From Thalassobius sp. Cn5-15 (GTDB lineage Bacteria; Pseudomonadota; Alphaproteobacteria; Rhodobacterales; Rhodobacteraceae), in the NCBI RefSeq assembly GCF_022347685.1, contig NZ_JAKRGF010000004.1:186001-250000 (forward strand): a stretch of 64,000 nucleotides of DNA, in the 5' to 3' direction. Positions 1 through 18,639 of the stretch are shown piece after piece. The notes under the pieces are model-generated. The model was not told the origin of the DNA. It ran no database searches and saw only the letters and a program-made list of their open reading frames with translations. Numbering within the stretch: the stretch's first letter is position 1; every line of letters begins with the position of its first letter. The translations under genes and the position numbers were made by a program.

Positions 1-2064
1 GCGGTGTTCGACCATTACCCCTTTGGGCCGCCCGGTGGAGCCAGAGGTATAGATCATATAAGCCAGATCGCTGCCTGCGACCACGACATCCAGATTGTCA
101 GTGGGCGCTGACAGGATGCGTGGATCCCTGTCCATCGCCAGCACCTCTGCCTGATGGGCCGGCAGATCGCCCAGCATGCCTTGTTGGGTGACGATAATCT
201 GGCAAGCGCTATCTTCAACATATAGTGCGATGCGATCCGGCGGGAACGCGGGGTCCAGCGGTACATAGGCGCCGCCAGCCTTTAGGATGCCAAGGGCACC
301 GATTATCAGATGTGGCGTGCGTTGAGTGTTGAGGCCGACGAGCGTTCCGGGTTTCACCCCCAAATCGCGCAAAACATGCGCCACCTGATTGGCGCGGGTG
401 TTCAGTTCCAGATAGGTGAAACTGTCGCCTTCCACCACCAATGCTGTAGCATGCGGAGTCTGCGCGACCTGCCGTTCAAACATCTGATGCAGGCAGAGGT
501 CAGCGTTATAATCGACCGCGGTCTGGTTCCAATCGCTTAGAACCATCTCTCGCTCTGCTGTGGCAAGACGGGGTAGGTCTGCAATGGCCCCGTCGGCGCT
601 GGCCAGCATGCCGACGCGGGCGGCCAGTGCGGTGAGCATCGGCTGCGGTACCTGTGCAGCGTCAGCCCGTAAGGTTGGTGCGGGCGACAGGCATAGTGTA
701 ACCAGTGCATCAGGGCAGGGATCTACGCTGTCACTGATGGCAAGCAGTGGCTGCGCTTGCAGCGCACCAGGCAGGCGGGCAGGAAGGTCTGCAGCGACAG
801 CGCCAAGGGAACGTGCCTGCGTTAGGGCGGCGTGTAATGTCTCATGTGCTTTCGTCACATCCGCGTCGGTGACCATGCGCAGTGGTGTCCACGGCAACAG
901 ATAGGCGTCCGCCGATGGACGCGACGCGTGATAGGCCAGATCGACACTTGCATTGCCGGTGATTTGCGCCGCGACCAGTCCCCATGCGGTGATTGCCTGA
1001 TCAGCGGGCAAGTCCAATGGTTGCTCCAGCAGACCGGTTGCTCCCGTAGGCATGGCGGGCAGGGTCGCTGGTGTCAGCGTTTCAAACAACGGGCGCAGCA
1101 TGGCCTCGGCCTGTGCGGCGGGTTGCAGGGCTGCGGAGATGTCAGCGGTTTCTGTCGCGTCAGGCTGCGTCAGGCGGGCGCCAACCACAGGCAGCGCGAT
1201 GTCAAAGGCGCGGTCATTTAGCGCGCTTAATTTGCTGAAGATCACCGCCCCATCGCCGCAGGCCACGGTCAGTGCGTCCGCATCCGCCGCGAGTACCGTG
1301 CCCGGCGCTGTGCCTGCGGGCACTGTCAGGGTTGCGGGTTGTGCGCTGCCAACCAGCGCTAGCCTGTCCGCCAGCGTGATCTTGGCGCAGCAGAGTGGGT
1401 TCCAGTATCCACCATGATCCAGCGCCCGTACCAAAGCGCTGATTTCACCTGCGCCTTGGGTGAAATCCAGGTGTCCACCGGCTGCGGGCCGATCGCTGAA
1501 CCCATAATAACTGCGCTGGGCGAAATCCTGCGGCTGCCCCGCGACGTCCCCTGTTTCCAGCAGGTCCATCAGATCGGGGAAGCTGTCCAGCGCTGCTTCA
1601 TAGCAGCGGGTGTTCAGGGTCAGAGCAGTGTCATTTGGGTGAATGTCAAACAGACGTTGCACCAGAATATTGCCGCGATCGGCGCCGCTGGTGATGTGGT
1701 GCCAGCTGATGCCATGGCGGGCCTCGCCATTTTTCAGCGCCCATACGGGGGCGTTTAGGCCGGCATAGGCGGGCAGCGGGCCATCGTGGAAATTGATTCC
1801 GCCGCGCTGCGGGCATGCCAGCACATCGGCGTCCAGCATGTCGAGGTTGGCAATCGACAGCAGCCAGTCGAAGGTCGCAGGCAGGTGCGTCACCAGATCC
1901 GGGCCGGGGGTAATGGTATGCAGCCCCTTTTCTGCTGCCCAGACGGCGACGTCTTTGGACCGTGTGACCACCGCCGCCACGCCATGTCCGCGCGTCAACA
2001 GCTGCTCGCCGCATTGGATCAAAAGGGATTCGTTTCCGATTAGAACGGTGGAGAAAGACGACAT
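1..2064 (-). CDS. Non-ribosomal peptide synthetase with N-terminal formyltransferase domain (partial, C-terminus outside window)
   Basis: The first 688 residues are present and the gene runs off the left edge. Residues 1 to about 190 are a methionyl-tRNA-formyltransferase-like fold: the catalytic triad N91, H93 and D129 sits in INFHDGPLP and SGADRGNIL with the same spacing as E. coli Fmt (N108/H110/D146). A formyltransferase C-terminal-like part follows, then a linker of about 200 residues without a condensation HHxxxDG motif. An adenylation domain starts near residue 500 (EMVLSDWNQT) and reaches core motif A3 (YTSGSTGRPKG) at the window edge. Formyltransferase-adenylation fusions act as initiation modules, as in LgrA of linear gramicidin, so a formylated aminoacyl starter is plausible (inference). 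The start is 1 nt after the stop of the glycosyltransferase gene, which is itself coupled to the polyketide synthase. Carrier domain and product cannot be seen. Confidence 0.88.
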   Translation of the reverse strand, partial: MSSFSTVLIGNESLLIQCGEQLLTRGHGVAAVVTRSKDVAVWAAEKGLHTITPGPDLVTHLPATFDWLLSIANLDMLDADVLACPQRGGINFHDGPLPAYAGLNAPVWALKNGEARHGISWHHITSGADRGNILVQRLFDIHPNDTALTLNTRCYEAALDSFPDLMDLLETGDVAGQPQDFAQRSYYGFSDRPAAGGHLDFTQGAGEISALVRALDHGGYWNPLCCAKITLADRLALVGSAQPATLTVPAGTAPGTVLAADADALTVACGDGAVIFSKLSALNDRAFDIALPVVGARLTQPDATETADISAALQPAAQAEAMLRPLFETLTPATLPAMPTGATGLLEQPLDLPADQAITAWGLVAAQITGNASVDLAYHASRPSADAYLLPWTPLRMVTDADVTKAHETLHAALTQARSLGAVAADLPARLPGALQAQPLLAISDSVDPCPDALVTLCLSPAPTLRADAAQVPQPMLTALAARVGMLASADGAIADLPRLATAEREMVLSDWNQTAVDYNADLCLHQMFERQVAQTPHATALVVEGDSFTYLELNTRANQVAHVLRDLGVKPGTLVGLNTQRTPHLIIGALGILKAGGAYVPLDPAFPPDRIALYVEDSACQIIVTQQGMLGDLPAHQAEVLAMDRDPRILSAPTDNLDVVVAGSDLAYMIYTSGSTGRPKGVMVEHR

Positions 2065-2065
2065 A

Positions 2066-3172
2066 TCAAACCTTGTTCAATGTATCGGATGGGGCGGATT
2101 GGGTGAGGTCGCTCGGGCAGTGAACTGCATGTGTCGCAGGCAGGTTCGGAATGCACGGTGAAGGCAAAGGGCGCAGCAGCGCCACCGCATCATTGCGCAA
2201 GAGATCGCGCAGGAAGTGATCAGGATCATCCGTGCGCTGCAGCCGGACCCAGCGGCGCAACCGGTGCACCACCCCACCCAAAAGGTGAAGCAGCGTGGCG
2301 CTGGTCGCTGTTATCCGTCCATGATTTTTCAGATAGTAATACCAGCGTGATCGAAACCAATACGCAGGCGTACGGTCCCAGCGGCCCATACCGGTGGACG
2401 CGGAGCCGATGTGCATCACCCGTGAGTGCGGCACAAAATCCACGTGATAGCCAGCGCGTTGGCCGCGCAGGCAAAGATCTGTTTCCTCAAAATAAAGAAA
2501 GTAGCGCTCATCAAAAAGGCCGATCCTCTCCAGCATTTCGCGCCGCATCAACAGGCTGGCGCCTGCCACCCAGTCCAGCGTGATGGGCTGACCTGCCTCG
2601 ATCACAGGGGCTGGAATATCCAGCGGCACCCGCGCCTCTGACAGCAGGCGCGACACAGGGCCAAAGCGCATCGCGCCCTCTAACTCACCCTTCAGGCTGG
2701 GAAACCGAAAGGTTGCCAGATGATTCGCGCCGTCTTCGCCATAGATCAGGCTGCCGGCAAATCCGGTGCTGGGGCTAGCTTGCATGTGATTGACCAGTGT
2801 GATGATCGCATCCGGTTCGGGAAAGGCGTCGGAGTTCAGGATATAGATAAAATCGGGCAGCTGTCCGATGGTTTCTGCGGCTTCCAGACCAACTTTGATG
2901 CCGTGGTTGTTGCCCGCACCAAAGCCGCCGTTACGTCCTGAGGCAGTGACAGTCACATCCGACCAGTCAGCCTGCGCGACGTGATCGCGCATTACTTCAA
3001 ATGATCCATCCTGCGAATCGTTGTCGACCACAACAATCAACCCGTTCAAGGGCGCCATCGCGATGCGGGCGCAGGCCACAGCACGTAGGGTCATCGCGGC
3101 AGTGCGGTAGTTCAGAACGATACACAGAACGGTTGTGGCAGACGGGGCTGGAGGGCTATTTTGATCGCTCAT
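2066..3172 (-). CDS. Glycosyltransferase family 2 (WbbL/rhamnosyltransferase-like)
   Basis: 368 residues with a GT-A fold of family 2. The N-terminal strand VLCIVLNYR, the nucleotide-binding VVVDNDSQDGS, the GGFGAGNNHGI loop and a metal-binding motif in the form ILNSDAFPEPD are all present. LFDERYFLYFEETDLCLR is the usual acceptor-side signature of rhamnosyltransferase-type members such as WbbL. No signal peptide or membrane span is seen, so it should work at the cytoplasmic membrane face. Its ATG overlaps the polyketide synthase stop by 4 nt and its stop lies 1 nt before the NRPS start. This coupling suggests that it glycosylates the polyketide/peptide product or the lipid carrying it (inference). 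Donor and acceptor sugars cannot be predicted. Confidence 0.9.
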   Translation of the reverse strand: MSDQNSPPAPSATTVLCIVLNYRTAAMTLRAVACARIAMAPLNGLIVVVDNDSQDGSFEVMRDHVAQADWSDVTVTASGRNGGFGAGNNHGIKVGLEAAETIGQLPDFIYILNSDAFPEPDAIITLVNHMQASPSTGFAGSLIYGEDGANHLATFRFPSLKGELEGAMRFGPVSRLLSEARVPLDIPAPVIEAGQPITLDWVAGASLLMRREMLERIGLFDERYFLYFEETDLCLRGQRAGYHVDFVPHSRVMHIGSASTGMGRWDRTPAYWFRSRWYYYLKNHGRITATSATLLHLLGGVVHRLRRWVRLQRTDDPDHFLRDLLRNDAVALLRPLPSPCIPNLPATHAVHCPSDLTQSAPSDTLNKV

Positions 3173-6100
3173 TCTGCGGCCTCCGTCTGTGTTGGCTGGT
3201 CTAAGTTGGTGTGCGTGTCTGCGTCGTTCAGCAGGCGGCGCAGATGGGTGGCCATCACCCGTACATTGGGTTCCAACACCATCGAGTCATGATCGCCCGG
3301 CACCTCAATCACCTGCATGTCAGGCACCCATTGACCCCAGTCATTGTCATGCAGCACATAGGCGCGTTCGCTGTTGATCAACCGACCCGGGGCCACCTGC
3401 CACTGACCGCGCATCGGTGGACGCAATAGGGTAAAGGGGCCGGACCATGGCTTCACCTGATAGCTGGCAACTGCGGTGAGGAATGCCGCTTCAATTGCCG
3501 CATTGTGGAACTGTACGGCTGCAAGACCGCCCTGCGCGGCGGCGTCATCGGGCGTTGCGCCACGGCGCTTGTCCAGTTCCCAGCGCAAGCGCCTTGTCAC
3601 CCAGCGGCTTAGGTAGGCGGGGCCTTCCTGACGGATATTCAGCGCCTGAATAGCCACGCGGTCACGCAGGCTGAGCGGACGGCGTTGTGGCAGCGGTGTG
3701 TCCAGCATGATCAGCGCCTGCACCTCTTCGCCCATTGCGCGCAGTTGCTGCGCCATTTCATAGGCGGTGATGCCGCCGCCGGAAAATCCGCCCAGCAGAT
3801 AGGGGCCATGTGGCTGAACCTGGCGCAGCTCCGCAATGTAATCCCGTGCGGCGTCAGGAATTTTGGTATGGGGGGTGGCGTCGCCTGACAGGCCCCGCGC
3901 TTGCAGGCCGTAAACAGGACGGTCGCGTCCCAGCATGCCAGCCAGATGGCGCAGATTCAGCACGTTGCCAAACATTCCCGCCACTAGGAAAAACGGCGTA
4001 CCTGTGGCGGACGCATTGTCGTGCATCGCCACCAGATGGGTGAAGCGCGGCGCAGGGGCCTCTGGCTGTTCTACGGGCGTATCTGCCTCTGCGCCTTTGA
4101 CCGCGTTCTGCGGGATTTGCGCGGCGATTTTCCGGACCGTCGGCGCCTCAAACAGCAGCGAGATGGGGAAGTCGCTGCCAAAGGTTTTCTTGATACGCGC
4201 AAAGAGCCGCACCGCGATCAGTGAATGACCACCAAGGTCAAAGAAACTGTCATCCAGCCCCACTTGATTGACGCCCAGTAACTCTTGGAAAAAGGTTGCC
4301 AGTTTTTGTTCCACCGGCGTTTCCGGCGCCGCATAATCGGTGTCGAGCGACGGGCGCTCGAAGCTTTGGTTGGTACTTTGTGTGGTGCCTGTGCTCTCTG
4401 CTTCGGCGATCAGCCCGTGCAGGTCGAGTGATGAGATTACGATCTGTGATTGCGGTTGCGCCAGCGCGCGCAGGAAGGCCTCCGCGCCGTCGGTGGGGCG
4501 GATGCCTTGGCTGACGTTATGGCGCAGTCGTTCCTCCGCAGGGGAAAGGGGGCGGGGTTCATTGGCGCTGGATTGCGCGGGGCGCAGGCCCTGCATCAGT
4601 CGGCGCAGGGTCAGGCCGGTGACCTTAATCAATACGGTGCCGTCTGGTGCTGCGATGGTGACATCAAACCGTGCGGTGCCGCTGCCATCGCTGTTGTCGT
4701 CGGCGCATCGGACCCAAGACATGATCTCTTGTTGCAACGGTGCGAAAACCTGTACCTGCTGATAGCTGACCGGCACCCACAAGTGATCACCCTTATAGCC
4801 ATCAATCAGCCCCATCGCCCACCCTGTCGCAATGTCGAGGAGGCCGGGGTGCAGGCCGTATGCGGTCAGATCGTTTGCAAATTTATCGGCAAGGCTGAGG
4901 CGGGCCAGACCTTCGCCTGCATGCAGCGAGGTGTTGCGCAGCACTTTCCAGCGCGGTCCAAAATTCAGGTGCACCTCTTGTGGGGCCTCTATCACGGTTG
5001 TGGGGATCGGGGCGTTGATCCATTCGCAGCCACAGCGCTGGGCAATCATTGAGATGTCCAGCGGTTCCGTCTCTGATGGCAGGATTTCCACCCACGCCTC
5101 TGCGTTCAGGTCGAAGGCACCGCTGGCGGCGCTTTGAACAGTGACGTTGTAGGTCATCGCATCCTTAGCCGTCAGTGACAGGCGCATGTCAGTGCTGCCG
5201 TTCTCGTCAACGGTGAGGGGGGATAGGAAGGTCAGATCATGCACCACATAGCCTGCCGCAATTTCCTGTGCCCGCATGGCTTGGTGGATCAGTTCCAGAT
5301 AGCCAGTGCCGGGCAGCAGGATCGCGCCATCCTTGGTACGGTGATCACCCAGCACCCAATCGCGGGGGCTGAGGGTGTTTTGATAACTGATTTCCGATTC
5401 CATACGCTCGCGTATAGTTCCCAGAAGGGACTGGCCGGAGACAGGCCCAGTGAGCGCTGTCCCGTCATTGCCCCGGCCAGCCATCGCGTCGGCGGCCATG
5501 CCGACCTCGGCCCATACACCCCAATTCAGCGCCAGCGTGCGGGTCTTAGCCCCCTTGCGGGCATTGGCAAAGGCGTTGAGGTAGGCGTTGGCGGCGACAT
5601 AATCCACCTGCCCCGCAGGCGTTGTTACGGTAGAGCTGGAGGAAAACAGAACCAGCCAGTCCAATGCGCCATCGGCGAAGATCTGATCCAGAATGCGGGT
5701 GCCGTACAGCTTGGGTGCAAAGACATCGGCCACGTCGCCCAGGGATTTGCCAGCGATCGGTGCGTCTTTGATTACACCAGCACCGTGAATGACGCCGTGG
5801 ATGGGGCCAAAGGCCTCTTCTGCCTCAAATTTCACCCGTTGCATGTCTTCGATGTTGGTGACGTCTGCGGCGACGGTCAGCACTTTGCCGTCCAGATTTT
5901 CCAACCGCTCAACAGCGCGGATGCGGCGGCTGATCGGATCATCGGAAGGATGGCTGTGCAGGTGATCGGCCCAGAGGTCGCGCTGCGGCAGGGCGCTGCG
6001 GGCCACCAGTACGATATTGGCGCTGTAGTTGCTTATCAGCATCTCGGCCAGCGTCAGGCCAATACCGCCGAAACCACCAGTGATCAGATAAGTCCCGCCA

Positions 6101-9100
6101 TCCCGCAGGTTTGTGCACATATCTGCGGGCAGAGCATCGTGCGGTACATCCGGCAAGGGGGCGCTGCCGTAGCTTTGTTGCAGGCGTTTGTTACCCCGCA
6201 GGGCGGCAGTATGATTGGCGGGTTTGGCCAGCACCTCTTCCAGCAGGGCGTCAGTTAGTTGCGCCCGTGCCGCCTGCGTCAGGGCAGGTAGACTTGGTGT
6301 TGGCAGTGGTAGGTCCAACCATGCGCAGGTCAGGCCGGGGTATTCGCGCGGGATCACTCGGACGGGGCCTTGCACAGTGGCTTTCTCTGGATAGGGCAGT
6401 GCCTCATCCCGCACTTGCAGCGCGCCAGATGTGGCGACAATCATATGCGCCTTTGGGTCGCAGTGGTCGGCCAAGGCCTGCGTTAAGTGCAGCAGCGCAT
6501 AAAATCCCTGTTCCAGATTGCGATGGAGGAAGGATGAACCGGGGCGGAACACCTCTGCTCCAGTGCTGAGCCAGAGATGTACAATACGATCCGGCAGCAT
6601 CTGATCCGCCGCCAATGTCTCGATCAGCTGTTCATAGCCCGTGCGACCCTGTTCCGGTGCCAGAACGAAGTCCTGACCGAGTTGAGCGAAGCCATCTCCC
6701 GCCCGTACTGTCACCACCAGATGCCCAGCCATACGTAGCCGTATGGTAAGATCAGCACCGAAGCCTGCCTCATCCTCAAAGATCAGCCATGTCTGTGGTG
6801 CCACTTCGCTAAGATCGCCGTGAATATCTGCCGCGCAGTCGGCGTAGCGTGGCATCCAGATGGGACGATAGCCCCAGCTATCAATGTCGTCGCGACGCAT
6901 TAATGGCGCGACCTCCGCTGTCTGCGTGCCCGCTGCGGGTTCGATGAAATAGTCCTGATGCTGCCAAGCATAGCTGGGTAAAACAACGCGGTGTCGCTGT
7001 GCTTCGCCCCAGAACTGGCCCCAGTCGAAATCCACACCGACAGCCCAGAGGCGCCCCAGCATGGTGGCGAAATAGACGTCATCGGCCACCTCATCCTGCG
7101 CATGGCGCAGGGTAGAGATGACGCGGTTTGCGGTTACGTTCGGTTGCACCTGTGTCAGGGATGACAGCGCCTTGCCTGGCCCAACCTCAAGGAACACCCG
7201 ATCCGGGGTCTGATCCAGCGTGGCGATACAGTCGGCAAACAGCACCGTGTGGCGCAGGTGATCTACCCAGTAGTCTGGGTCCGTCGCCTGCTGATCGGTG
7301 ATCATCTGGCCTGTGAGGTTGGAGGCAAAAGGGATCTGCGGCGCGCGCAGGTCCAGGCCCTGCAGGAAACTGCGGAAGCGTTCAAGGATCGGGTCCAGCA
7401 TACGGCTGTGCGCGGCGATGTTGATTGCCACATCCTGACAGTCGATGTCCTGCAGCCGCAGGTGATCGCGAAGGCGGTCCAGTGCCGCACGCGGACCGGT
7501 GGCGACCGACAGACTCGGCGCGTTGACGCTGGCCAGATCCAGATCGGATCCTAGATGTGTGCGCAGTTCCTCTGCCGATAGCGCGACCGACAGCATGCCG
7601 CCGGTGGGCACCGTGTCAAACAGTTGCCCGCGCAGATGCACAAGGTCGATGCAATCGGTAAATCCGATCACGCCCGCCAGGCAGGCGGCGGTGTTTTCGC
7701 CCATGGAATGACCGATCAGTGCCGCAGGTTGCACGCCCCAGCTGATCCACAGCTGCGCCAACGCATATTCGGTGATCATGATCAGTGGCAGTTGGACGGA
7801 GGGTTGCTTTAACGCCTCATGCGCCGTCACCTCATCATCTTTTTCGGGCAGCCAGAGCGCGCGGATGTCATAATCCAGCTTGGCCTGCAGATGCTCTAAC
7901 CCACGGTCCATCCAATCGGCAAAGACAGGCTCCACATCATAAAGATCGCGCGCCATGCCCGCATATTGCGCACCGCCGCCGGGGAACATGAAGACCACCT
8001 CTGGCCGGTCGAGTGCAGTGTGGGTGAAGACGCGACGGCGGTCATTTGCAGCCAGCAGCTTCGCTGCTTCTGCATGGGTTTCGGCCACGACCACGCGGCG
8101 GTGATCAAAGGCACGACGGCCTTCTTTTAGCGTATAGGCAACATCGGCCAGTGGCTGATCTGTGCGGCTGTTTAGGTGATCAGACAGTCTGTCACTGCCT
8201 GCTTCCAGCGCCTTTTTGTTGCGGGCCGAGAGGGTGAGGATCTGGAAAGGAAAATCGGCCTCTTCAGAAGTGGCGCGCATCGGCGCCTCTTCTAGCACCG
8301 CATGGGCGTTGGTGCCGCCCACGCCGAGCGAGTTCACGCCGGCACGGCGCGGCCCCTTGTGCGACACCCAATCCTGCAGGCGATCGTTCACCTGAAAGGG
8401 CGAGCCGTCGAAATCAATCGCTGGATTGGGCGCCTCATACCCCAGAGAGGCGGGCAGTTTGCGATTGTACAAGCTAAGACTGGTTTTGATCAGGCTGGCC
8501 ACACCCGCTGCCGTGTCCAGATGCCCGATGTTGGTTTTCACCGACCCGATGCGGCAATAGCCCACCTCATTGGTGGTTTCGCGGAACGCTTCGGTCAGGG
8601 CCGCGACCTCAATTGGATCGCCCAGATAGGTGCCGGTGCCGTGGCATTCGACGTAATCGATCGTATCTGCGCTGATGCCTGCCAGCGCGTGGGCCTCAGC
8701 CACTGCATCAGCCTGTCCCTCGACAGATGGTGCCAGATAGCCCGCCTTGGCCGCGCCGTCGTTGTTGACGGCGGTGGACTTGATCACCGCCCATATATGA
8801 TCGCCATCCGCCAGCGCATCGGAAAGGCGACGCAGCACGACGACGCCTGCGCCGGAGCCGAAAACCGTGCCTTGCGCGCGGTGGTCAAAGGCGTGGCATT
8901 CACCGTCGGGCGACAGAATTTCCCCTTCTTTGAACAGGTAGCCACGGCCCTGGGGCAGTTCAATCGTGACGCCGCCGGCCAGCGCCATATCGCATTCACC
9001 GTTGAGCAGCGACTGACAGGCGTAATGTGTCGCCACCAGCGAGGTGGAGCAAGCGGTCTGTACGTTCACCGATGGCCCTTTGAGGTCCAGCACATGGCTG

Positions 9101-9775: not shown

Positions 9776-11134
9776 CTAGGGCAGCAGTGTTAGGATGCTA
9801 TGCCAGTGCCAATAAAGGACTGCAAAAGCCCCCAAACCACCCAAAAGTGTAAAAGCCAGATCGTGCAGCGGATCCCAAGCACCTTGGTGGCGGGCCAGCC
9901 AGACCACCACCGGATAGGCCAAGAGGCCAGAGAGGCCGATGCCGATGAGGCCACCGATCAGACCGTAATATTGCAGCCCCAGTGCCAGCGCCCCCAGCAG
10001 CAGTACCGCACGGGCCAGCGCCAGTACAAAGAATCGGCGGCTGTCGCCATTGGCCAAAGCTGCACGATCATAGGTCAGCACAATCACCTGCGGGATCTGC
10101 ATCGCGGCCAATAGGGTCACGATCCCCTTGGCCCCGGCATAACGATCATCATAAAGCAGACCGACCAGCCACGGCCCGAGGGCGGCCATCATCAGCAGCG
10201 TTGCCACCAGAAATGCCGTGGCTGTCAGCCGCATGCGTCGAAGCGCCAGAAAGTTTTCGCGCGACTGATCCGGCGGGCTTTGACGGTAGATTGGGATTAG
10301 CACCTTATGCGTGACCATTCCCCCCAGCATCAGCGGGAAAGAGGCTAAGAAATAGCCGATGTTATAAACCCCGAATTGATCAAGGCTGAGGTATTTTCCG
10401 ATCAGCAGCTTATCGCCCTGCGCCACCAGAAACCCGCAGATGGTCGACAGAAATATCCACTTGCCGAAATGCACCAGCTCCGCCGTTGCGCTCTGGTCCC
10501 AGCGCAGGCGGTTGCCGGGGCCGGGCAGCCACAGGTGTAGGAGGATCAGATTGATCACCGCACCCGCGATGCCGCTGATCACCAGCGCCCAGACGGATTG
10601 CAGCGCCCATGCGGCGGTGATGGCGATCAGCAGGGTGCAAGCCTGCACCGCCAGTTCGATCAATGTGACCCGCCCGGCGCGCAAGTGCCGGTTGGCGGTT
10701 TCCAGCTTCGTCGGGTTGAACCCACCGATCAGCAGGCTGAGCGCGGCAAAGGGCAGGATCTGGGTCAGCAACGGCTCGCCATAAAACTGGCCTATGGGAT
10801 AGGCCAGCACGCAGGCTGCCAGCCACAACCCGAAGCCGCGCAGGATTTGCAATGTCCACGCGGTGTTAAGGAAATCGGGTTCATCGCCGCGCTTGCTTTG
10901 CATGATCGCGGGGCTGGTGCCCATGTCGGAAAACATCGACAGGCCGATCATCACCACAGTGACCAGCGCCATTAGGCCAAAGGCCTCTGGGAACAACAGA
11001 CGGGTCAGAACCAGATTAGAGAGCAGGCGTAGAAACTGAAACGCGGCAAAGCCACCGGCGTTGATCACCGAACTGCGCAGGGCGCGGGACATCAGGCTGG
11101 TTTTTTCGGCGGTCTGTTTGGGGAGGTCTGTCAT
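9776..11134 (-). CDS. Oligosaccharide flippase (Wzx / MATE-like polysaccharide exporter)
   Basis: 452 residues, almost entirely hydrophobic with about 12 to 14 predicted membrane helices. The N-terminal part (SSVINAGGFAAFQFLRLLSNLVLTRLLFP) and GLMALVTVVMIGLSMFSDMG are typical of the WzxC/AmsL branch of lipopolysaccharide flippases. Family members move undecaprenyl-pyrophosphate-linked oligosaccharides from the cytoplasmic to the periplasmic face. The start overlaps the stop of the upstream GT2 gene by 4 nt (ATGA), so the two are translationally coupled. Together with the initiating transferase (17950-18639) and the Wzy/WaaL-like protein (16408-17841) it completes a Wzx/Wzy-type assembly set. 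Confidence 0.9.
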   Translation of the reverse strand: MTDLPKQTAEKTSLMSRALRSSVINAGGFAAFQFLRLLSNLVLTRLLFPEAFGLMALVTVVMIGLSMFSDMGTSPAIMQSKRGDEPDFLNTAWTLQILRGFGLWLAACVLAYPIGQFYGEPLLTQILPFAALSLLIGGFNPTKLETANRHLRAGRVTLIELAVQACTLLIAITAAWALQSVWALVISGIAGAVINLILLHLWLPGPGNRLRWDQSATAELVHFGKWIFLSTICGFLVAQGDKLLIGKYLSLDQFGVYNIGYFLASFPLMLGGMVTHKVLIPIYRQSPPDQSRENFLALRRMRLTATAFLVATLLMMAALGPWLVGLLYDDRYAGAKGIVTLLAAMQIPQVIVLTYDRAALANGDSRRFFVLALARAVLLLGALALGLQYYGLIGGLIGIGLSGLLAYPVVVWLARHQGAWDPLHDLAFTLLGGLGAFAVLYWHWHSILTLLP

Positions 11135-11946
11135 CGACCGCGACTCCAGCCTGTGTTGTTGCGCGCCAGTCGGCCGATCAGGCGGACGCCGCTGTAGACT
11201 GCAAAACTTAGCGGCATACGCACTATGTTGCGGAACAGGTCGGGCTTGGCATAAGGCAGCTTGTCATCATTGGCTAACAGCGCGGGGTACAGCGCGTTGA
11301 TTTCGCGCACCCCTTCATCCTGACGGCGGCGCACCTTGATCAGATTACGCAGCCCCGCGACCAGAGGCCAGACATAGCCGGCCGCGACCTTATGCCGTTC
11401 GGCGGCGTTGAACTGCAGGCGGACAAACGTGTCGTCGGCGATAATGTCTGGAAACTGTTCCCATCGCGCACGCCCCTTCGCATTGACCGCAAACAGGCCA
11501 CAGCCCGGCACCCCGTCGCGGATGAAGGGTACAGTGCGATAGAACCGGGCAAAGGCGCGGGTAATGGCGCTGGGGCTGTCGGGAATAACCATCGTGCCGC
11601 TGGCGTAGGCGGCGCTGTCCTGATCCAGCACGGTCACCAGTTCGGTCAGCATCATTGGTGTGATCTCGACATCTGCATCCAGATAAACGCGCATAATGCC
11701 TGTGGCCGCGCCGTCGCCCGCGTTCAAGGCTGCGGGTTTACCCCCCTGCGGCAGATCCAGAACCGTCATCGCAAAGGGCGCGGTCGCGGCGAACTGCCGG
11801 GCCAGATCAGCGGTGCTGTCGGTGCAGCCATTGGCTACAAACAGCACTTCAACCCCGCATTCGGGCTGTACCGCTGCCGCCAGTGCGTTGAGGCAGGGCA
11901 GCATCGTTGCGGCCTCATTATGGGCGGGAATGATGACAGAAATCAT
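11131..11946 (-). CDS. Glycosyltransferase family 2
   Basis: 271 residues. ISVIIPAHNEAATMLPCLNAL at the N-terminus, LFVANGCTDSTADLAR and the DxD motif VYLDADVEI are classic GT2 features. There are no obvious multiple membrane spans. It begins with ATG at 11946 at the left side of a 197-nt divergent region and is coupled by a 4-nt overlap to the flippase gene downstream. It probably adds one sugar to the repeat unit on the inner face of the membrane. Specificity is unknown. Confidence 0.9.
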   Translation of the reverse strand: MISVIIPAHNEAATMLPCLNALAAAVQPECGVEVLFVANGCTDSTADLARQFAATAPFAMTVLDLPQGGKPAALNAGDGAATGIMRVYLDADVEITPMMLTELVTVLDQDSAAYASGTMVIPDSPSAITRAFARFYRTVPFIRDGVPGCGLFAVNAKGRARWEQFPDIIADDTFVRLQFNAAERHKVAAGYVWPLVAGLRNLIKVRRRQDEGVREINALYPALLANDDKLPYAKPDLFRNIVRMPLSFAVYSGVRLIGRLARNNTGWSRGR

Positions 11947-12143: not shown

Positions 12144-13397
12144 GTGACCGAAATACCCAAGCTTGGTTACCTGCTTCCCGGTTTTCCGGCGCAGTCTCAC
12201 AGCCGCTACTGGCGTGAGATCCTGAAGCTCGAGTCGCTGGGTGTTGAGGTGGTGGTGTTTTCAGATCATCCAGATGAAACGGTGGTGCATTCCTGGGCCA
12301 AAGGGGCAGAACAGCGCACTCAGTATCTGACGCAAACCACGCTCAGTGCCCGCCTGGCGGCACTACCGCGCTTGCCTTGGCGGCATCTGCGACAGGGGCG
12401 TGGCGGTGTCGATCATTGGCGTGCGGTGACCCAGGCGGCGCCTTTGGCGCGGCATCTGGCGCATATGTGTGCGGATCAGGACATCTATCATGTGCATGTG
12501 CCCGGCTGTGGTGACATGGCGCTGGTTATGGCACTGGCGCAGCGGCTTTACGGTATCGACTATTCGCTGCATCTGGATCGCCCGCTGGCCGAGGCAGGAG
12601 TGGCCCAGCATGTGAAATGGGGCGGTGCGCGGTTTGCGTCGGTTGGGTCCCAAACCATTCTTGATGATCTCACGGTGCGGCTGGGGGCGGATATGCCATC
12701 GGATGTGACTGTGCATCCTCTTGGCGTCGATACAGCCTATCTGCGCCGTGATAGACCCTATCGCGCGCGCGAAGTGGGCAAACCCCTGCGTCTGATCGCC
12801 AGCGCGGATCTGGCTGCCGACAAAGGTCATGACGCGCTATTACAGGCGGTGCTACATCTGCAAAGCCGTGACATTGAAGTGCATCTGGAGATTTTGGGTG
12901 AGGACGCAGATGGCGGCGCAGGGTTCCGCGCCGAGCTGGAACATCAGGTGGCTGAGTTGGGCCTCATAGGTACTGTTTTTATTCCCGGTGCGATGTCTGA
13001 CGACACCCTGCGTGATCGGTTGTGCGCGGCTCATGTCTACGTGATGTCCAGTCCGGCAGAGATCACTGAAACCGCAGTGTTAGAAGCGATGAGCTGTGAA
13101 TGCCCTGTTGTCGCGGTGGAGTGTGAAAGTGTGAACCAAATGATCACAAACGGGTTGAATGGCATTTTGGTTGGGCCTGCGGATACCATCGCCCTTGCCT
13201 CTGCGCTGGAGTATCTGGCGTTTGACCCTGCCCGTGCCGCGCAGGTGGGGCAGGCGGGGCGCAAACGGGTGATGGAGGCCGCAGATGTGGCCGCAAGCGC
13301 GTCGCGTTTGATCACCCAAATTGGTCTGGAACTGCCTGAGGCCGAAGAGGGCGTGCAGGGCTGGAGCATGCCGGAAAAACAACTGGCCAAATTTTAG
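12144..13397 (+). CDS. Glycosyltransferase family 4 (GT-B fold)
   Basis: 417 residues starting at GTG (TEIPKLGYLLPGFP), with AAAGGA about 12 nt upstream. The C-terminal donor-binding half is clear: GKPLRLIASADLAADKGHDALLQA, then FIPGAMSDDTLRDRLCAAHVYVMSS and the EX7E-type region AEITETAVLEAMSCECPVVAVE of GT4 enzymes. The N-terminal half resembles exopolysaccharide glycosyltransferases of the colanic-acid type. It is the only rightward gene of the glycan locus and is expressed from the divergent region. It likely extends the lipid-linked sugar chain in the cytoplasm. Confidence 0.9.
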   Translation: MTEIPKLGYLLPGFPAQSHSRYWREILKLESLGVEVVVFSDHPDETVVHSWAKGAEQRTQYLTQTTLSARLAALPRLPWRHLRQGRGGVDHWRAVTQAAPLARHLAHMCADQDIYHVHVPGCGDMALVMALAQRLYGIDYSLHLDRPLAEAGVAQHVKWGGARFASVGSQTILDDLTVRLGADMPSDVTVHPLGVDTAYLRRDRPYRAREVGKPLRLIASADLAADKGHDALLQAVLHLQSRDIEVHLEILGEDADGGAGFRAELEHQVAELGLIGTVFIPGAMSDDTLRDRLCAAHVYVMSSPAEITETAVLEAMSCECPVVAVECESVNQMITNGLNGILVGPADTIALASALEYLAFDPARAAQVGQAGRKRVMEAADVAASASRLITQIGLELPEAEEGVQGWSMPEKQLAKF

Positions 13398-13417
13398 AGG
13401 CGTTTAGCCTGGCCTGC

Positions 13418-16303
13418 TCAAGGGGCACTTACACGGTAGATCCGGCCCTGTTCTGCTGCAAACTCCAACTGCTCAATCGCGTGCATATAGATCGTCGCGC
13501 GCTCGCTTTCGGCTATCAGAAAGCGCCCCCGCGGGCCATTGGTCCAGTTGAGTTGATAATCCGTTGCGGCACCGGGCAGAACGGCAGTATCGACGCCATC
13601 GCCCCCATGCAGCCGGTCGCCACCGCCGTTGCTGATCAGCCAGTCATTGCCGTTATGCGCGATCATCAGGTCCGGGCCGGTGCTGCCGGTCAGCAGATCA
13701 TCGCGGTCGCTGCCTGCCTGACTGCGTAGCTGTTGGAACACTGCGGAATCACGCGCCTCCCATGATGTGGGCAGGTTGGCATTTGCGGTATGCAGTACCT
13801 GCCAGCGGGGGTTGTCATCGCCCAGATGGCGCAGCCCCCCCCAGCTGCCCCATTTGCTGGGCGCGCCGACATCGACAAAGGCGTTGAACAGCGTGCCGCC
13901 TGCGGCCTGCCAGCCCTCGATCACTTGCTCATAGAGTGATGCGACCTCTTCACTGTAGTTCAGTGTAGCGAAAAAGGCTGTCAATTGCGTGTCCCCCTGC
14001 CATTCGCTGTCTGCCACGATATGCGTGCCGCCTTCGTACATGATCAGCGGCAGTCCGTGCTTGGCTGCGACATTAGCATGATAAGGGAAGGTTTCGTTGA
14101 CCAGAGAACGCACCTCACCGGATTTCAGCAGCGCATAGGCGCGTCGCTGTGCCTCTGTCTGACCAAGGCGCAGCCAGCCCTTTACCTGATCCGCCTGTGG
14201 TGAACTGCCAAGGGCGTGGCCGAAATAGCCGGTGACAGCATACGCATCAAACTGCGCCACCGGCGGTTGGTTGCTGCGATCTTCAGCGGTGTAGAGGGGC
14301 GCGGTTAGCAATGGCTCTTCCAACCCGGGCCAGCCGGTGTGCGTGGCAATCACACGGGTCAGCCGTGTCGGTGCATCGGCGCCGAATACATCGGCCCAGA
14401 TCGCCGCAACCTCTGCCGCGCGCAGGCCGGCCCATTGCATCCACGCATCGGTGTCGCGCACGCCCTCGCCCCAGCGGGCGACGGCCTGATCACCAGCATA
14501 TTCTGCCTGCGAAAAGATGAAGTTCCACACCTCGTTGGAATATTCCACATAGGCCTTCAGCTGCGGGTTCAGTCCTGCCTCCACCTGCGTGGCAAAGCGG
14601 CGGACATAGGTATCATCGGCGCGGTGGGGCATGTTGAACCACGGATCGGCGCCAATGCGATTGGCCAGATCCAGCATCACCTCCAGCGGCACACCGCGCC
14701 AACTGTAGCTGTAATCTTGCGGGAGCGGCCGGTCGCCCCATGTGCGAATCGGGCTGTCGTTGGTGCCCATCCAGTCCATGAAGCGGACAACGCGCATGTT
14801 CTCAATCCGGCTCAGCCAGTCGGGATTGAATGTTTCTCCCATCGCCCAGTAGGGCAGGTGGCGTTCATGGATCACCTCAATGTCGCGGATCGGGTCTGTT
14901 GTGTCCAGCGCCGCAATCGAAATGGCGACCAGCCCCTCACCGGGTGTGAAGTCAAACCACATTTCGCCCCTAGAGCCATCGTGGCGGGCGCTGACATTGC
15001 GGGCACGGCCCAGCAGCTGGATGCGGCCTTTGCCTGTATAGCGCATCCGGTAGCGACCGGCGGCCAGCGCTGCGTCTGGGGGCAAATCCGCCAGCACAAA
15101 GGTTTCCAGCCGCTCGACCCCCTCGGGCAGGCGCTGCGGCCAGCCTGCGGGCGAAAGCGCCCCAGCGGCCCGCAGCTGATCAGCGTCCATGCCACCCCAT
15201 TGTCCAGTCTTGTGTCCGATCCAGGGACGGGCGGATTTTATCTGGTCGATGAAGGGCATCTGTGTGGACCAGTCCGCAATGCCTTGCAGACCGATGCCTA
15301 ATGCGGGTGCTCGGTCGGGGGGCGTGGCATGTGCGGCAGGCTGCGGGTGTGTGGGTTGCGGCTCGCGGGCTTTGACCTTGAGCGGGCGCTGGGCATGCGC
15401 CATCCCAGCACCAATTGTGGCTGCGATCACACTGTAGTTCTGACGCACCAAGGGATGAATAGTAGCGGGCAGCTCCATGCGGGAGGGCAGTGTGTCCTGA
15501 AACATCGGCCCATAACTGATCATCGCTGCAAGGAAGTAGAGTGTTGGCGTCCCATGCGGCGCATCATCGCTGAACAGATCAATAGGCTCTAATGCTTCCA
15601 GCGCAGGCAGCTGCAGGATGTGGACAAGTGAGGTTGCGATGGGCAGCAGCTCAATCTGTAGTTCGGGTCGTGCCTCATGCAGGGTGGCGGCGTAGTCGTG
15701 ATACCATTGATCGTAGGCCCCGCCCTGCGCGTCCAGATAGGCTGTATAGCCCGCGCGGTCAGGGGGGAAGCTATTGACCACAGCCTCCATATCCGCCCAT
15801 CCCTGATAAAGGAAGAATCGCATTTCAGTGCTGCCGCGATCGGCATTTGCCCAATCCAGTACCGGCAGGCTGGCGGCTACCGCGCTGAGGTTTGCAGGAT
15901 TGTTGCCGGGCATCACGGCTTCGGGGGATTGATATTGCAAGTAGTTTTCAGCGCTCAGCACTACGGCAGAGATGCCCGATTGCCCCAATCCCCCACGCCG
16001 ACGTTCCCAGACGCCACGCACACCGTCGATTTTCCAGTTCGGATCGGGTGGCAGTTGGCGGGCGTGATCAGGCAGAAAGCCCCAGCTGCCATCCGCCTCC
16101 AGACGACTGCCGCGGGCCTTGGCGATTTGGTTCAGCCAATAGGGGGTCGAGGTCAGCGGCAAGCCTTCGCGGTGGTGCACCAGTGAGTTGCCGAAGAAGA
16201 ACGCCTTGAGCGGTGGCGTTTCTGCCTGCGCCGCGCTGGGCAAAGGGATGGCTGTCCAAAGGGTGCAGATCAGGGCAAGTGTCAGATGGAAGAGGCGCAT
16301 CAC
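13418..16303 (-). CDS. Secreted SGNH-like / clan-A glycoside-hydrolase-like protein with C-terminal RTX-type repeats
   Basis: 961 residues. A signal peptide is obvious (residues 1-27, ending SAAQAE). Residues about 30-300 begin with LKAFFFGNSLVHHREG, which resembles block I of SGNH hydrolases. Residues about 340-800 look like a TIM-barrel glycosidase of clan GH-A: EYSNEVWNF holds the expected acid/base Asn-Glu pair and LPLIMYEGGTHI a plausible nucleophile Glu. The C-terminus carries degenerate hemolysin-type calcium-binding nonapeptides (SNGGGDRLHGGDGVDTAVL), which suggests type I secretion or calcium-dependent folding outside the cell. It lies within the glycan locus between GT4 and the polymerase/ligase, so it may trim or release the polysaccharide (inference). 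Catalysis is not proven; it could instead bind glycan. Confidence 0.75.
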   Translation of the reverse strand: MMRLFHLTLALICTLWTAIPLPSAAQAETPPLKAFFFGNSLVHHREGLPLTSTPYWLNQIAKARGSRLEADGSWGFLPDHARQLPPDPNWKIDGVRGVWERRRGGLGQSGISAVVLSAENYLQYQSPEAVMPGNNPANLSAVAASLPVLDWANADRGSTEMRFFLYQGWADMEAVVNSFPPDRAGYTAYLDAQGGAYDQWYHDYAATLHEARPELQIELLPIATSLVHILQLPALEALEPIDLFSDDAPHGTPTLYFLAAMISYGPMFQDTLPSRMELPATIHPLVRQNYSVIAATIGAGMAHAQRPLKVKAREPQPTHPQPAAHATPPDRAPALGIGLQGIADWSTQMPFIDQIKSARPWIGHKTGQWGGMDADQLRAAGALSPAGWPQRLPEGVERLETFVLADLPPDAALAAGRYRMRYTGKGRIQLLGRARNVSARHDGSRGEMWFDFTPGEGLVAISIAALDTTDPIRDIEVIHERHLPYWAMGETFNPDWLSRIENMRVVRFMDWMGTNDSPIRTWGDRPLPQDYSYSWRGVPLEVMLDLANRIGADPWFNMPHRADDTYVRRFATQVEAGLNPQLKAYVEYSNEVWNFIFSQAEYAGDQAVARWGEGVRDTDAWMQWAGLRAAEVAAIWADVFGADAPTRLTRVIATHTGWPGLEEPLLTAPLYTAEDRSNQPPVAQFDAYAVTGYFGHALGSSPQADQVKGWLRLGQTEAQRRAYALLKSGEVRSLVNETFPYHANVAAKHGLPLIMYEGGTHIVADSEWQGDTQLTAFFATLNYSEEVASLYEQVIEGWQAAGGTLFNAFVDVGAPSKWGSWGGLRHLGDDNPRWQVLHTANANLPTSWEARDSAVFQQLRSQAGSDRDDLLTGSTGPDLMIAHNGNDWLISNGGGDRLHGGDGVDTAVLPGAATDYQLNWTNGPRGRFLIAESERATIYMHAIEQLEFAAEQGRIYRVSAP

Positions 16304-16407: not shown

Positions 16408-17841
16408 TCAGATGACCGATTGCAGGCCCTTTTTGCGCGGCTCGTGCTGTGCGGCGCTTGCACTGCCTTCGGCGCGTGGGCCACGTTGGGTGATGTGTTC
16501 GCAATGCCCTAGCAGCGCGCCGGTCAGCAGCCATGTCAGCGGTGTCAGCGTGGCGTTTGGCAACAGGTCCAGGATGTTGATCGCCAGCGTCAATGCAATA
16601 GCGCCTGATAGCGGCGAGATCCCCGCCGCCTGCAGGGCACCAAACCGCCAGAACAGCACCAGAATGGGCGCGGCCAGCAACAACATCTCGGCTCCGAAGC
16701 CCAGCCAGCCGTAGAAACCCAACGCAATGATCCAGCGCCCGTCAGAAATTGTTTCGCGGCCGGTGATCGGGTTAAACACCTGATTACGCCCCCAACTGCC
16801 CCACCCTAGCAGCGGGCGTTCGTTCGCGCGTTCCAACAGGATCGCCTCATTGTTCAGACGGAATTGCAGTGATGCAGCGCGTTCCGGGCTGATGCGGGAA
16901 AACAGATCCAGCAGGGCCTGCTCCGGCAGCAGACCAGCCCCTTTCAGCAGCGGATAGGCCAATGCGACCAGCGCCACTGTCGTTGCTACTGCGACTTGCA
17001 ACCGTACCGACAGCCCCAACACCAGCGGTAGCAGCAGCAGTGCAAATAACAGCGCACCGACGGATTTGCACAGTACCAGCACCGCAAAGAGGTAGAGCGA
17101 CACCACGATCGCCCGCGCACGCTGTGGCCCGCTCTGATGGCGCGCCAGTGTCGCTGCGGCCACCATCGCTGTCATGGTAAAGAACGCAACCCAAATTCCG
17201 TGATAGAGGAACACCACAGGGCGGAAGCCGCCAAAGCGGATCGCCTGATCAAACAGGTGCTGGTAAAACCCGTAGATCCAATTGTTCAGCTGTGGTGACA
17301 GGCGAATTTCGACCAGCATCGGCAGGCTGTAGATCAGCCCGAACAGAGCAAAGGCCATCAACATCTCACGCAGATCGTCTTCTCGGCGCAGTAGGGAATA
17401 GGCCATCACCATCGGCACCACCATCACCAGTCTTGTCAGAACCAGAGATATCGCATCGCGCAGGCCTAACCCCGGCAGGCCGACACGGCCGGTGAATTGT
17501 GCATCGGTGTTCACAATCACCGTCAGCACCGGCGATAGCACGAAGATCAGCAGCACCATCCGCAGAACGACCGATTGCGGCAGCAGCGGGTGCTGCGCCA
17601 GATGATCACGCATCCGCGCCGAAAGCAGCGCGGCCAGCATGGTGAAGGCAGGCAGCGTGTCCTTGTCCAGCGGCGGCAGCAGCGGCAGGTCAAATTGGGT
17701 TGGGAAGGGGGGCAGGAATAGGTAGGACAGAAACAAGTTGGCCAAAAACGCACGTGCGGGCGGCAGCCATTGGAACAGGCCAATGCCGATCAGGGGCCAG
17801 AGCCCCAGTATCAGATATGCAAATGTGTTTGGATCCATCAC
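16408..17841 (-). CDS. O-antigen ligase / Wzy-type polymerase family membrane protein
   Basis: 477 residues with about 10 to 12 hydrophobic segments and a larger periplasmic loop (about 320-385) containing RLNNEAILLERANERPLLGWGSWGRN. The combination of E/R-rich loop residues with PLLGWG is typical of the WaaL/Wzy O-antigen ligase superfamily (PF04932-like). These proteins polymerise or ligate undecaprenyl-linked sugar chains in the periplasm. Sequence alone does not separate a polymerase from a ligase. Within this locus a Wzy polymerase role is likelier because flippase and initiating transferase are also present. About 108 nt separate it from the upstream transferase gene. Confidence 0.82.
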   Translation of the reverse strand: MMDPNTFAYLILGLWPLIGIGLFQWLPPARAFLANLFLSYLFLPPFPTQFDLPLLPPLDKDTLPAFTMLAALLSARMRDHLAQHPLLPQSVVLRMVLLIFVLSPVLTVIVNTDAQFTGRVGLPGLGLRDAISLVLTRLVMVVPMVMAYSLLRREDDLREMLMAFALFGLIYSLPMLVEIRLSPQLNNWIYGFYQHLFDQAIRFGGFRPVVFLYHGIWVAFFTMTAMVAAATLARHQSGPQRARAIVVSLYLFAVLVLCKSVGALLFALLLLPLVLGLSVRLQVAVATTVALVALAYPLLKGAGLLPEQALLDLFSRISPERAASLQFRLNNEAILLERANERPLLGWGSWGRNQVFNPITGRETISDGRWIIALGFYGWLGFGAEMLLLAAPILVLFWRFGALQAAGISPLSGAIALTLAINILDLLPNATLTPLTWLLTGALLGHCEHITQRGPRAEGSASAAQHEPRKKGLQSVI

Positions 17842-17949
17842 ATGCCGGCGGCGTTTGGTGTCCTGTTGAAAAATACGTTTCGGGAATCAGGCCTACGCCC
17901 GATCTCCTTCAGCATAACGCGTTCTTGCGGCATAAAAATGGCGAAGTGT

Positions 17950-18639
17950 TCAGCGGCCTGTTGCGCTCAGTACGACGCTAACGGTGGCGGCCAACAGGCG
18001 CAGATCGGTGCTGAAAGACAGGCTGCGATAATACTGCGCGTCAAAGGCAGCCCGATCAACAAAGCTAGCCTCATTACGGACGGAGGTTTGCCAGATGCCG
18101 GTGATTCCCGGCACCAGCGCGTAGTATTCCGAGCCGGGATAAAGGGCACGCTGGCTGGGCAAGAAAGGACGCGGGCCAACCAGCGACATCTCACCTTTTA
18201 GCACGTTCCATAACTGCGGCAGTTCATCCAACGAGGTGCGGCGGATCAGGGCACCAATACGGGTGACACGCGGATCGTTGGTCAGTTTCTGATCGCGGTC
18301 CCATTCGACGCGGGCCTCGGGGTTTTTGTCCAAATAGCGGGCCAGTTGCTGTTCGGCGTTGGGCACCATGCTGCGCAGTTTCCACATGTGGAACTCTTTG
18401 CCATGCAGGCCGACGCGACGCTGCCGATAGAACGGGGAAGCACCATCCAGTGCGATCATCACCATCAGAATGGTAACAACCACCAGAACGCCGGGTGCCA
18501 TCAGCAGCACCAACAGAATGTCGAAGCCGCGTTTCCACACAGTCTGATATCCTACAGCCACTGGCGCCTGAGGGGCGAAGTGCGCTTTCAGGTCGGCGGC
18601 ATCCAGCTTGGTGGACGTGGCTTGGACATGTGCATTCAT
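17950..18639 (-). CDS. Undecaprenyl-phosphate sugar-1-phosphate transferase (WbaP/ExoY/PglC family)
   Basis: 229 residues if the ATG at 18639 is used. This start has GGGGGAG about 7 nt upstream, better than the more distal in-frame ATG at 18699. One hydrophobic helix (FDILLVLLMAPGVLVVVTILMVM) anchors it, followed by the catalytic core: FYRQRRVGLHGKEFHMWKLR, then DPRVTRIGALIRRTSLDELP and the hallmark NVLKGEMSLVGPRP. Family members transfer a sugar-1-phosphate from a nucleotide sugar to undecaprenyl phosphate and so start repeat-unit synthesis. It sits at the start of the leftward part of the glycan locus and is preceded by about 1 kb of non-coding DNA. Confidence 0.92.
   Translation of the reverse strand: MNAHVQATSTKLDAADLKAHFAPQAPVAVGYQTVWKRGFDILLVLLMAPGVLVVVTILMVMIALDGASPFYRQRRVGLHGKEFHMWKLRSMVPNAEQQLARYLDKNPEARVEWDRDQKLTNDPRVTRIGALIRRTSLDELPQLWNVLKGEMSLVGPRPFLPSQRALYPGSEYYALVPGITGIWQTSVRNEASFVDRAAFDAQYYRSLSFSTDLRLLAATVSVVLSATGR

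Follow-up and report, generated by a model that had tools for sequence, protein, structure and literature searches.

The window analyzed here, a stretch of 64,000 nt from the 3.5-Mb draft genome of Thalassobius sp. Cn5-15 (G000:C12:186001-250000), begins within a unit of four genes that encode a type I polyketide synthase (PKS), a glycosyltransferase (GT2a), a nonribosomal peptide synthetase (NRPS) and a phosphopantetheinyl transferase (PPTase), and that adjoins genes of a Wzx/Wzy-type polysaccharide locus. We consider it reasonably likely that the four proteins form a self-contained line whose product, a small, non-sugar acyl group, is destined for the polysaccharide of this locus. The architecture of this line, its intact catalytic residues, the order of its genes and their co-inheritance with Wzx and Wzy can be read directly from the genomes compared below. 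The genes concerned are located in the window as follows.

1..2064, minus strand: 5′ part of the NRPS gene, with the formyltransferase (FT) domain, a half-C-like stretch and the start of the A domain (Pfam)
2066..3172, minus strand: GT2a, a rhamnosyltransferase-like GT2 glycosyltransferase between PKS and NRPS (Pfam/NCBIfam)
3169..9633, minus strand: type I PKS of 2154 aa with a TTG start and an in-frame ATG at 9630 (Pfam/NCBIfam)
9776..11134, minus strand: Wzx-type flippase (PF13440, 178 bits, above cut-off)
11131..11946, minus strand: GT2b glycosyltransferase (PF00535), overlapping the Wzx gene by 4 nt
16408..17841, minus strand: p477, a Wzy/WaaL-type integral membrane glycan polymerase or ligase (WaaL fold)

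The edge of the window truncates the NRPS gene, whose complete form (1530 aa) lies at G000:C12:183472-188064 (L006:7472-12064).

Co-inheritance of the PKS-NRPS unit with glycan genes

The distribution of the unit was compared with that of the glycan genes in 61 genomes (9 from the genus, a further 28 from the family and 24 more distant ones), with presence cut-offs of E ≤ 1e-200 for the NRPS, E ≤ 1e-40 for Wzx and E ≤ 1e-20 for p477. The three proteins occurred in exactly the same 19 genomes (Fisher 3e-16; counted by genus, 11/53, p = 1e-11), the p-values of all our co-occurrence tests ignoring shared ancestry. GT2b was present in 20 genomes, namely the 19 NRPS-positive ones and G032, and was encoded on a contig other than that of the PKS in G013, G034 and G036. 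A large RTX protein encoded between the glycan genes of the window was found in 18 of the 61 genomes, all of them among the 19 NRPS-positive and none among the 42 NRPS-negative ones. A two-domain oxidoreductase-epimerase from the left flank occurred in 13 of the 19 and in two distant genomes.

A larger sample of 150 genomes of the family gave the same picture. The NRPS was detected in 54 of them, Wzx in 57 and p477 in 59. NRPS and Wzx agreed in 141 genomes (both in 51, NRPS only in 3, Wzx only in 6, neither in 90), and for NRPS and p477 both were present in 52 and both absent from 89. Reading of the exceptions changed the NRPS-Wzx table to 52/2/5/91 (p = 2e-29). The scoring of G118 as NRPS-negative was rejected as a false negative, the whole module being present there in a divergent form, and that of G154 as NRPS-positive as a false positive, the match belonging to a different large NRPS/PKS cluster. 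Of the other exceptions, G163 sits on a 6.9-kb contig, and in G091 the module is accompanied by genes for GT, EpsE, RTX and Wzz, with no Wzx in the 20 kb read. In 43 of the 51 genomes that have NRPS and Wzx, the two are at most 25 kb apart, and Wzx or p477 lies within this distance of the NRPS in 51 of the 54 NRPS genomes. The tie between NRPS and Wzx is thus partly linkage and partly shared presence without linkage.

To characterize the surroundings of the unit, we used the best 80 of at least 575 stretches from named genomes that encode an NRPS relative (E ≤ 1e-3); the at least 575 stretches may include other NRPSs, and the 80 loci lean towards close relatives. The original prediction, made from the first 18,639 nt of the window, had named PKS-NRPS genes without glycan genes, or the converse, as observations that would speak against a common pathway. 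No clear case of the former was found: 76 of the 80 loci had at least one gene of the Wzx, Wzy, PGT (initiating sugar-1-phosphate transferase) or Wzz/Wza/Wzc classes. The other four comprise L099, with glycosyltransferases and sugar enzymes, L069, with genes for ManC and for two proteins of acyltransferase type, and two contig fragments of 9.9 and 18.5 kb. With respect to the converse, at the cut-offs given above the Wzx and Wzy subfamilies of this locus did not occur without the NRPS in the 61 genomes, and sister loci without it, described below, turned up among the 150. A library of 29 glycan proteins gave about 4.9 matches per 20 kb around the NRPS loci, GT2a included, and no match (E ≤ 1e-6 over 100 residues) in any of 20 control regions of 20 kb; these regions belong to ten NRPS-positive relatives, a genome set other than that behind the 80 loci, and were placed at round rather than random coordinates. 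Chance adjacency of the unit and the glycan genes was rejected on the basis of these control regions and the co-occurrence tables.

Pairwise distances between the genes were compared as well. In the 41 loci with Wzx, Spearman correlations within PKS, GT2a and NRPS were 0.61-0.77. Distances of Wzz correlated with those of PKS, NRPS and GT2a at 0.60-0.75, those three among themselves giving 0.51-0.73.

Conservation and spread of the unit

The genes for PKS, GT2a and NRPS followed each other in this order on one strand in 79 of the 80 loci, the exception being L118, where GT2a is displaced. The PPTase gene lay within 1.5 kb of the NRPS gene in 72 loci, and two of the other eight loci end about 100 bases past the NRPS. 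The PKS was found in 78 loci with a length filter, and fragments of it in all 80 without the filter. In each of 17 further relatives PKS, GT2a and NRPS were present together in the locus with glycan genes around them; the genes are broken in G017 and the PPTase is located elsewhere in G031. PKS matches of up to about 47% identity over part of the query were taken to be other PKSs, except for the split genes in G017 and G036. As 54 of the 150 family genomes sampled have the NRPS and the four-gene unit had already been described (see below), the earlier statement that Wzx/Wzy loci rarely hold such an assembly line was not supported.

The regions flanking the 80 loci showed several layouts, with the glycan genes rearranged between lineages. 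Copies also reside on plasmids: 11 plasmid records contained NRPS relatives covering at least 80% of the query, and all nine plasmid matches of GT2a (E ≤ 1e-60) were in records that also hold the NRPS. In the annotated neighbourhoods of Ruegeria conchae and Paracoccus marcusii the order PKS-GT2-NRPS was retained, with the FT as a separate gene in the latter. On the R. conchae plasmid (L141) the unit adjoins the rhamnose genes rfbCBDA, a sugar transferase gene and the exosortase gene XrtD. In Shinella and Aminobacter the PKS and the NRPS-PPTase genes are transcribed divergently without GT2a in between; a flippase gene and PGT or O-antigen-ligase (Wzy) genes lie around them, and the Aminobacter locus includes an annotated polysaccharide-export gene. 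In Neorhizobium a GT2a relative is located about 16 kb from the NRPS.

Three of the 80 loci came from Hydrogenophaga (Comamonadaceae). Trees of the NRPS (SH-aLRT 93) and of the PKS (99), calculated by a quick method with midpoint rooting from 33 and 32 picked loci, both placed Hydrogenophaga beside Paracoccus, Cypionkella and G034. Hydrogenophaga pseudoflava was left out of the PKS tree; its PKS is broken into two open reading frames (ORFs). Since the two trees agree on the placement of Hydrogenophaga, PKS and NRPS were probably transferred there together. In H. pseudoflava (L080) the unit and a GT4 gene are followed at 16607-22612 by a second NRPS (AMP-binding, PP, C, A, PP, TE), whose first AMP domain is possibly FAAL-like and which might provide a second acyl decoration.

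These data bear on the explanation that the cluster merely sits in a hot spot of glycan genes and is functionally separate from them. The rearranged flanks and the plasmid-borne copies would fit such hitch-hiking. The co-occurrence, however, is specific for subfamilies and holds where Wzx is on another contig or more than 1 Mb away, and the link to glycan genes persists in the Rhizobiales (Shinella, Aminobacter) and after transfer to Hydrogenophaga, so that we regard mere hitch-hiking as very improbable.

Operon structure and domains of PKS and NRPS

The GT2a and PKS genes overlap by 4 nt, and the NRPS gene starts at 2064 (minus strand), 1 nt past the GT2a stop codon, which bears out the overlapping operon with 4-nt and 1-nt junctions described initially. 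Among the orthologues a 4-nt overlap was the commonest arrangement at each of three junctions (43/96, 24/97 and 46/91). This preference and the invariance of the catalytic residues argue that the tight operon is not due to chance.

The PKS comprises KS (residues 22-527), AT (547-824), KR (about 950-1376), DH (1404-1681), ACP (1776-1839) and TE (about 1882-2122) domains, so the Pfam/NCBIfam search agrees with the complete KS-AT-KR-DH-ACP-TE synthase proposed before; neither a loading module nor an ER domain was detected in this search. We found 97 PKS orthologues, of which 93 were kept by length and 90 were distinct, three genomes having been entered twice. In all 93 aligned sequences the residues C195, H331 and H371 of KS, S643, R668 and H742 of AT, Y1345 of KR, H1431 and D1600 of DH, S1804 of ACP and S1951, D1978 and H2115 of TE were invariant, from which the assembly line appears to be under selection. 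The AT motif (GHSMG ... IAAHS) is ambiguous with respect to the AT substrate. In the PKS the KR precedes the DH, an order common to the sequences of the alignment and unlike the DH-KR order that is common in modular PKSs.

The NRPS consists of FT (N and C domains), an unassigned stretch reminiscent of a condensation domain's C-terminal half, an A domain with an inserted monooxygenase, and a PCP. The formyltransferase-NRPS of the original prediction was thereby confirmed, and the extension to the left added the monooxygenase and the PCP. The luciferase-like monooxygenase (TIGR04020, 482.1 bits at a curated cut-off of 244.45) occupies residues 759-1109, between motifs A4 and A5 of the A domain. 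Of 99 NRPS orthologues found, 96 were kept (93 distinct, three genomes entered twice). N91, H93 and D129 of FT and S1439 of PCP were identical in all 96. No HHxxxDG motif was present N-terminal to the A domain in any of them, and neither a C domain nor a release domain or TE was found. The code of the A domain is D-I-L-Q-x-G-M-I-W-K, which we take to resemble the published glycine code closely; at x the sequences have M (56), L (26), F (10), Y (3) or V (1), position 330 is I in 95 and V in one, and the remaining positions are identical in all 96. A basic tail on the NRPS was present in 86 of 96 sequences, and no docking partner for it was found. The best PDB match of the whole NRPS was LgrA and that of the monooxygenase domain PuwE (6ket, 341 bits). 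MupA, which gave TIGR04020 its name, was studied as an α-hydroxylase of an ACP-bound thioester in mupirocin biosynthesis, according to the available part of PMC10952193, and by analogy the monooxygenase of the NRPS probably α-hydroxylates the bound glycine unit.

As the PKS has no loading module and the NRPS has no C or release domain, domain logic suggests NRPS → PKS → TE as the only collinear reading. Alternatively, the KS-AT-KR-DH set without ER could act iteratively and provide a polyene-like acyl chain for a Wzx-flipped glycolipid, in line with the intact KR and DH residues, the lack of a detectable ER and the unusual KR-DH order. On this explanation the NRPS loading module would have no obvious part to play, and a polymer is indicated instead by the Wzy/WaaL-type protein that is co-inherited and by the frequent Wzz genes; we rate the explanation as improbable.

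Proposed pathway and its strength

For an acyl group destined for the polysaccharide we propose the following sequence of events. The PPTase would prime the PCP and the ACP. The A domain would load glycine, the FT would then formylate it, and the embedded monooxygenase would probably α-hydroxylate the PCP-bound formylglycine. The KS would accept the formylglycyl unit and extend it, and the action of KR and DH would yield a formamido acyl chain of C4 type, reduced or unsaturated. The TE might free this chain or pass it to a sugar in the lipid-linked repeat unit, to whose assembly GT2a would contribute. The co-inherited Wzx would flip the decorated unit and p477, with its WaaL/Wzy fold, would polymerize it under the control of Wzz. 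In loci that have it, the SGNH protein p337 (see below) may act in the periplasm as an editor of esters. In this scheme the substrate, the reaction of the monooxygenase, the number of extensions, the attachment to the glycan and the role of the SGNH protein are what we infer. Attachment to the sugar is the weakest step, since no acyltransferase was found to be constant in the unit and the TE alone would need to perform it or to release the acid for a later ligase. In a more specific and more tentative form, which we would put slightly below even, each Wzx/Wzy repeat unit would carry a formamido-acyl substituent and the flippase and polymerase subfamily would have evolved alongside the assembly line to accept the decorated unit.

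The idea that the genes belong to one glycan pathway, put forward in the original prediction, withstood the comparisons above; taken as a whole, that prediction was supported in part. Between an acylated polysaccharide and an exported glycolipid, both among the products it suggested, the co-inherited Wzy/WaaL-fold protein and the frequent Wzz genes lead us to lean towards a polymer.

Several observations weigh against assigning the unit to the polysaccharide. No dedicated acyltransferase for the attachment was seen as a constant part of it. In five sister glycan loci (G105, G114, G124, G148 and G176), whose Wzx shows 30-47% identity, the 20-40 kb read contain no PKS-NRPS, which is thus dispensable for making glycans of this general type. 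Wzx was not near the NRPS in 8 of the 51 genomes with both, being on another contig in six and more than 1 Mb away on the same contig in two. Of the 80 loci, 54 had Wzz, 47 Wzx, 40 p477 and 17 PGT, counts that are limited by contig ends and the 10-kb flank, and p337, present in 33, is not a fixed part of the unit. Distances of Wzx tracked those of PKS, GT2a and NRPS less well (0.45-0.59) than these tracked each other; for GT2b (in the GT2b set) the correlations were 0.29-0.47 and for the PPTase they were weak, at 0.17-0.43. As to the chemistry, the KS could work iteratively, N-formyl-α-hydroxyglycine would be a fragile unit, and the match to the LgrA formyltransferase is weak (15 bits), though aligned across the N-H-D catalytic residues; the FT scores above the Pfam cut-off despite this weak alignment.

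Related Wzx or Wzy-like genes with no PKS-NRPS in the stretch read were seen in L168-L174 and L179 (G105, G114, G148, G176, G124, G104). These sister loci are useful natural controls for glycan chemistry.

A further explanation is that the unit makes a free, perhaps glycosylated small metabolite such as a signal, a siderophore-like compound or an antibiotic, with GT2a adding the sugar and the glycan genes sharing only regulation or place. A PKS with a terminal TE, a domain that usually releases free acids, and a PPTase of its own are compatible with this, as are the type I secretion pair near the Shinella copy and the TolC-family gene near the Aminobacter copy; the passages available from papers on the unit likewise class it among secondary-metabolite clusters. 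The exact co-inheritance with Wzx and the Wzy/WaaL-fold subfamily fits a polymer better, however, and no recurrent gene for a small-molecule exporter, resistance or a receptor was present in the four annotated neighbourhoods (R. conchae, P. marcusii, Shinella and Aminobacter). A free metabolite thus seems rather unlikely to us. Because the unit is inherited together with genes for one kind of secreted polysaccharide, its product is probably a decoration rather than an antibiotic.

Relation to known systems

A PKS/NRPS/GT/PPTase cluster conserved in roseobacters, with its product unknown, is described in passages of PMC5014874 and PMC4337385, which attribute it to Martens et al., and PMC4337385 gives its presence as 28 of 57 genomes. 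The four genes named there, PKS, glycosyltransferase, NRPS and PPTase, are the same as in our unit; PMC5014874 concerns Leisingera sp. JC1, whose contig L100 encodes GT2a, the NRPS, the PPTase and the terminal part of the PKS. The parts of these accounts available to us make no mention of polysaccharide genes, and the glycan link is added here. The Paracoccus marcusii plasmid on which PMC8273931 reports a hybrid cluster, in the part available, holds the unit, with a flippase gene, epsE and a sugar transferase gene as annotated neighbours. The NRPS-like/T1PKS hybrid found in 18 of 37 species according to excerpts of PMC10584327 is, by its gene sizes, probably the present unit. In the open-access literature searched, judged by titles, the beginnings of abstracts and passages, no link of the cluster to a polysaccharide was found, nor any paper joining a luciferase-like monooxygenase, exopolysaccharide and a polyketide synthase. 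The unit is therefore a known orphan, and as far as these literature searches show its assignment to a glycan and the chemistry of its loading module are new. Also added here are the arrangement FT-A(monooxygenase)-PCP and the occurrence of the unit outside the Rhodobacterales.

The NRPS resembles the initiation module of LgrA (F-A-T), which likewise has an N-terminal formyltransferase with an N-H-D triad, an A domain and a PCP and lacks a C domain. Unlike LgrA, it has a glycine-type code, a monooxygenase inside the A domain and a half-C-like stretch, and it probably delivers to a PKS rather than to a further NRPS module. Compared with MupA/PuwE-type (TIGR04020) monooxygenases, the one described here, a putative α-hydroxylase, is inserted in a loading A domain within a polysaccharide locus. 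In common with Wzx/Wzy exopolysaccharide loci, the locus has PGT, Wzx, a Wzy/WaaL-fold protein, Wzz, a tyrosine-kinase-like ATPase, glycosyltransferases and sugar enzymes; unlike these, it includes a complete PKS-NRPS with its own PPTase that is co-inherited with Wzx and Wzy. In Dlt D-alanylation, an A domain and a carrier protein activate the acyl group for teichoic acids, and the partner DltD has an SGNH fold. Unlike in Dlt, a two-protein PKS-NRPS chain would take the place of one amino acid, and no MBOAT partner was identified in our locus.

If the product is bound to exopolysaccharide, the polymer and not the culture extract is the place to look for it. A PKS-NRPS cluster common in Rhodobacteraceae would then have a structural role instead of one in signalling or antibiosis, which would matter for how an abundant marine group attaches to surfaces and associates with algae and would extend the product range of PKS-NRPS systems to polymer building blocks.

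Other genes of the locus and of the window

The initial description had a flippase, two more glycosyltransferases, a polymerase or ligase and an initiating transferase adjoining the operon. All of these were recovered among the window genes up to 18699, its end at 18639 falling inside the PGT ORF; the RTX protein of 961 aa between the glycan genes had gone unmentioned. The remaining features of this part of the window are the following.

9634..9775, minus strand: AT-rich gap 5′ of the PKS gene, seen in the sequence
12144..13397, plus strand: EpsE-like GT4 glycosyltransferase (PF00534; NF041876 392 bits, slightly below the cut-off of 400)
13418..16303, minus strand: secreted-looking RTX protein of 961 aa (PF00353, 25.8 bits at a cut-off of 23)
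17950..18699, minus strand: PGT, initiating sugar-1-phosphate transferase with a WbaP-type catalytic domain (PF02397, 192 bits, above cut-off)

The gap at 9634..9775 is a possible promoter region of the PKS-GT2a-NRPS-PPTase operon; a promoter scan gave a single promoter-like match (9753-9726), and the scan total was not above that of shuffled sequence. Extension of the locus to the left, as had been suggested, completed the NRPS gene and showed that the operon continues with genes for an Sfp-type PPTase (222 aa), the SGNH-fold protein p337 (337 aa) and Wzz (482 aa). On the opposite strand, facing the left end of the operon, are genes for a CpsD-like ATPase, the two-domain oxidoreductase-epimerase, glycosyltransferases and more sugar enzymes, with a WecG-type glycosyltransferase farther out.

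As is typical of Wzx/Wzy loci, both a PF02397 sugar-1-phosphate transferase and a PF13440 Wzx scored above their cut-offs; the PGT also matched TIGR03022 with 244 bits, below the full-length cut-off of 403. Wzz was barely above the cut-off for PF02706 (25.8 bits versus 25.5) and below that for TIGR03007 (92 bits), and the tyrosine-kinase-like ATPase beside it was below the cut-offs for TIGR03018 (84 bits) and TIGR01007 (69 bits). The genes scanned in the window and its left flank did not include one for the outer-membrane export protein Wza. p477 has the WaaL/RodA-type fold that is common to polymerases and ligases; 38 copies were found besides that of the window, and 24 were aligned with it. 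p337 (40 found, 33 aligned) has an SGNH fold with the Ser and DxxH residues. The N-terminus of the RTX protein is SGNH-like and, by weak secondary matches, related to p337, its C-terminus carries an RTX repeat, and the middle was assigned to no family; in a PDB search the RTX repeats were the sole match.

Farther to the right, a DNA methylase with a RAMA domain is encoded at 41461-42591, which we read as CcrM-like. At 46116-47313 a tRNA-Arg(CCT) gene directly adjoins a gene of the phage integrase family, and rightward of it the G+C content drops from about 0.59 to 0.50-0.56, together suggesting an integrated element. Inside this putative element are two large ORFs, 54254-56671 (805 aa) and 57431-60442 (1003 aa), which matched no Pfam family at E ≤ 1e-5.

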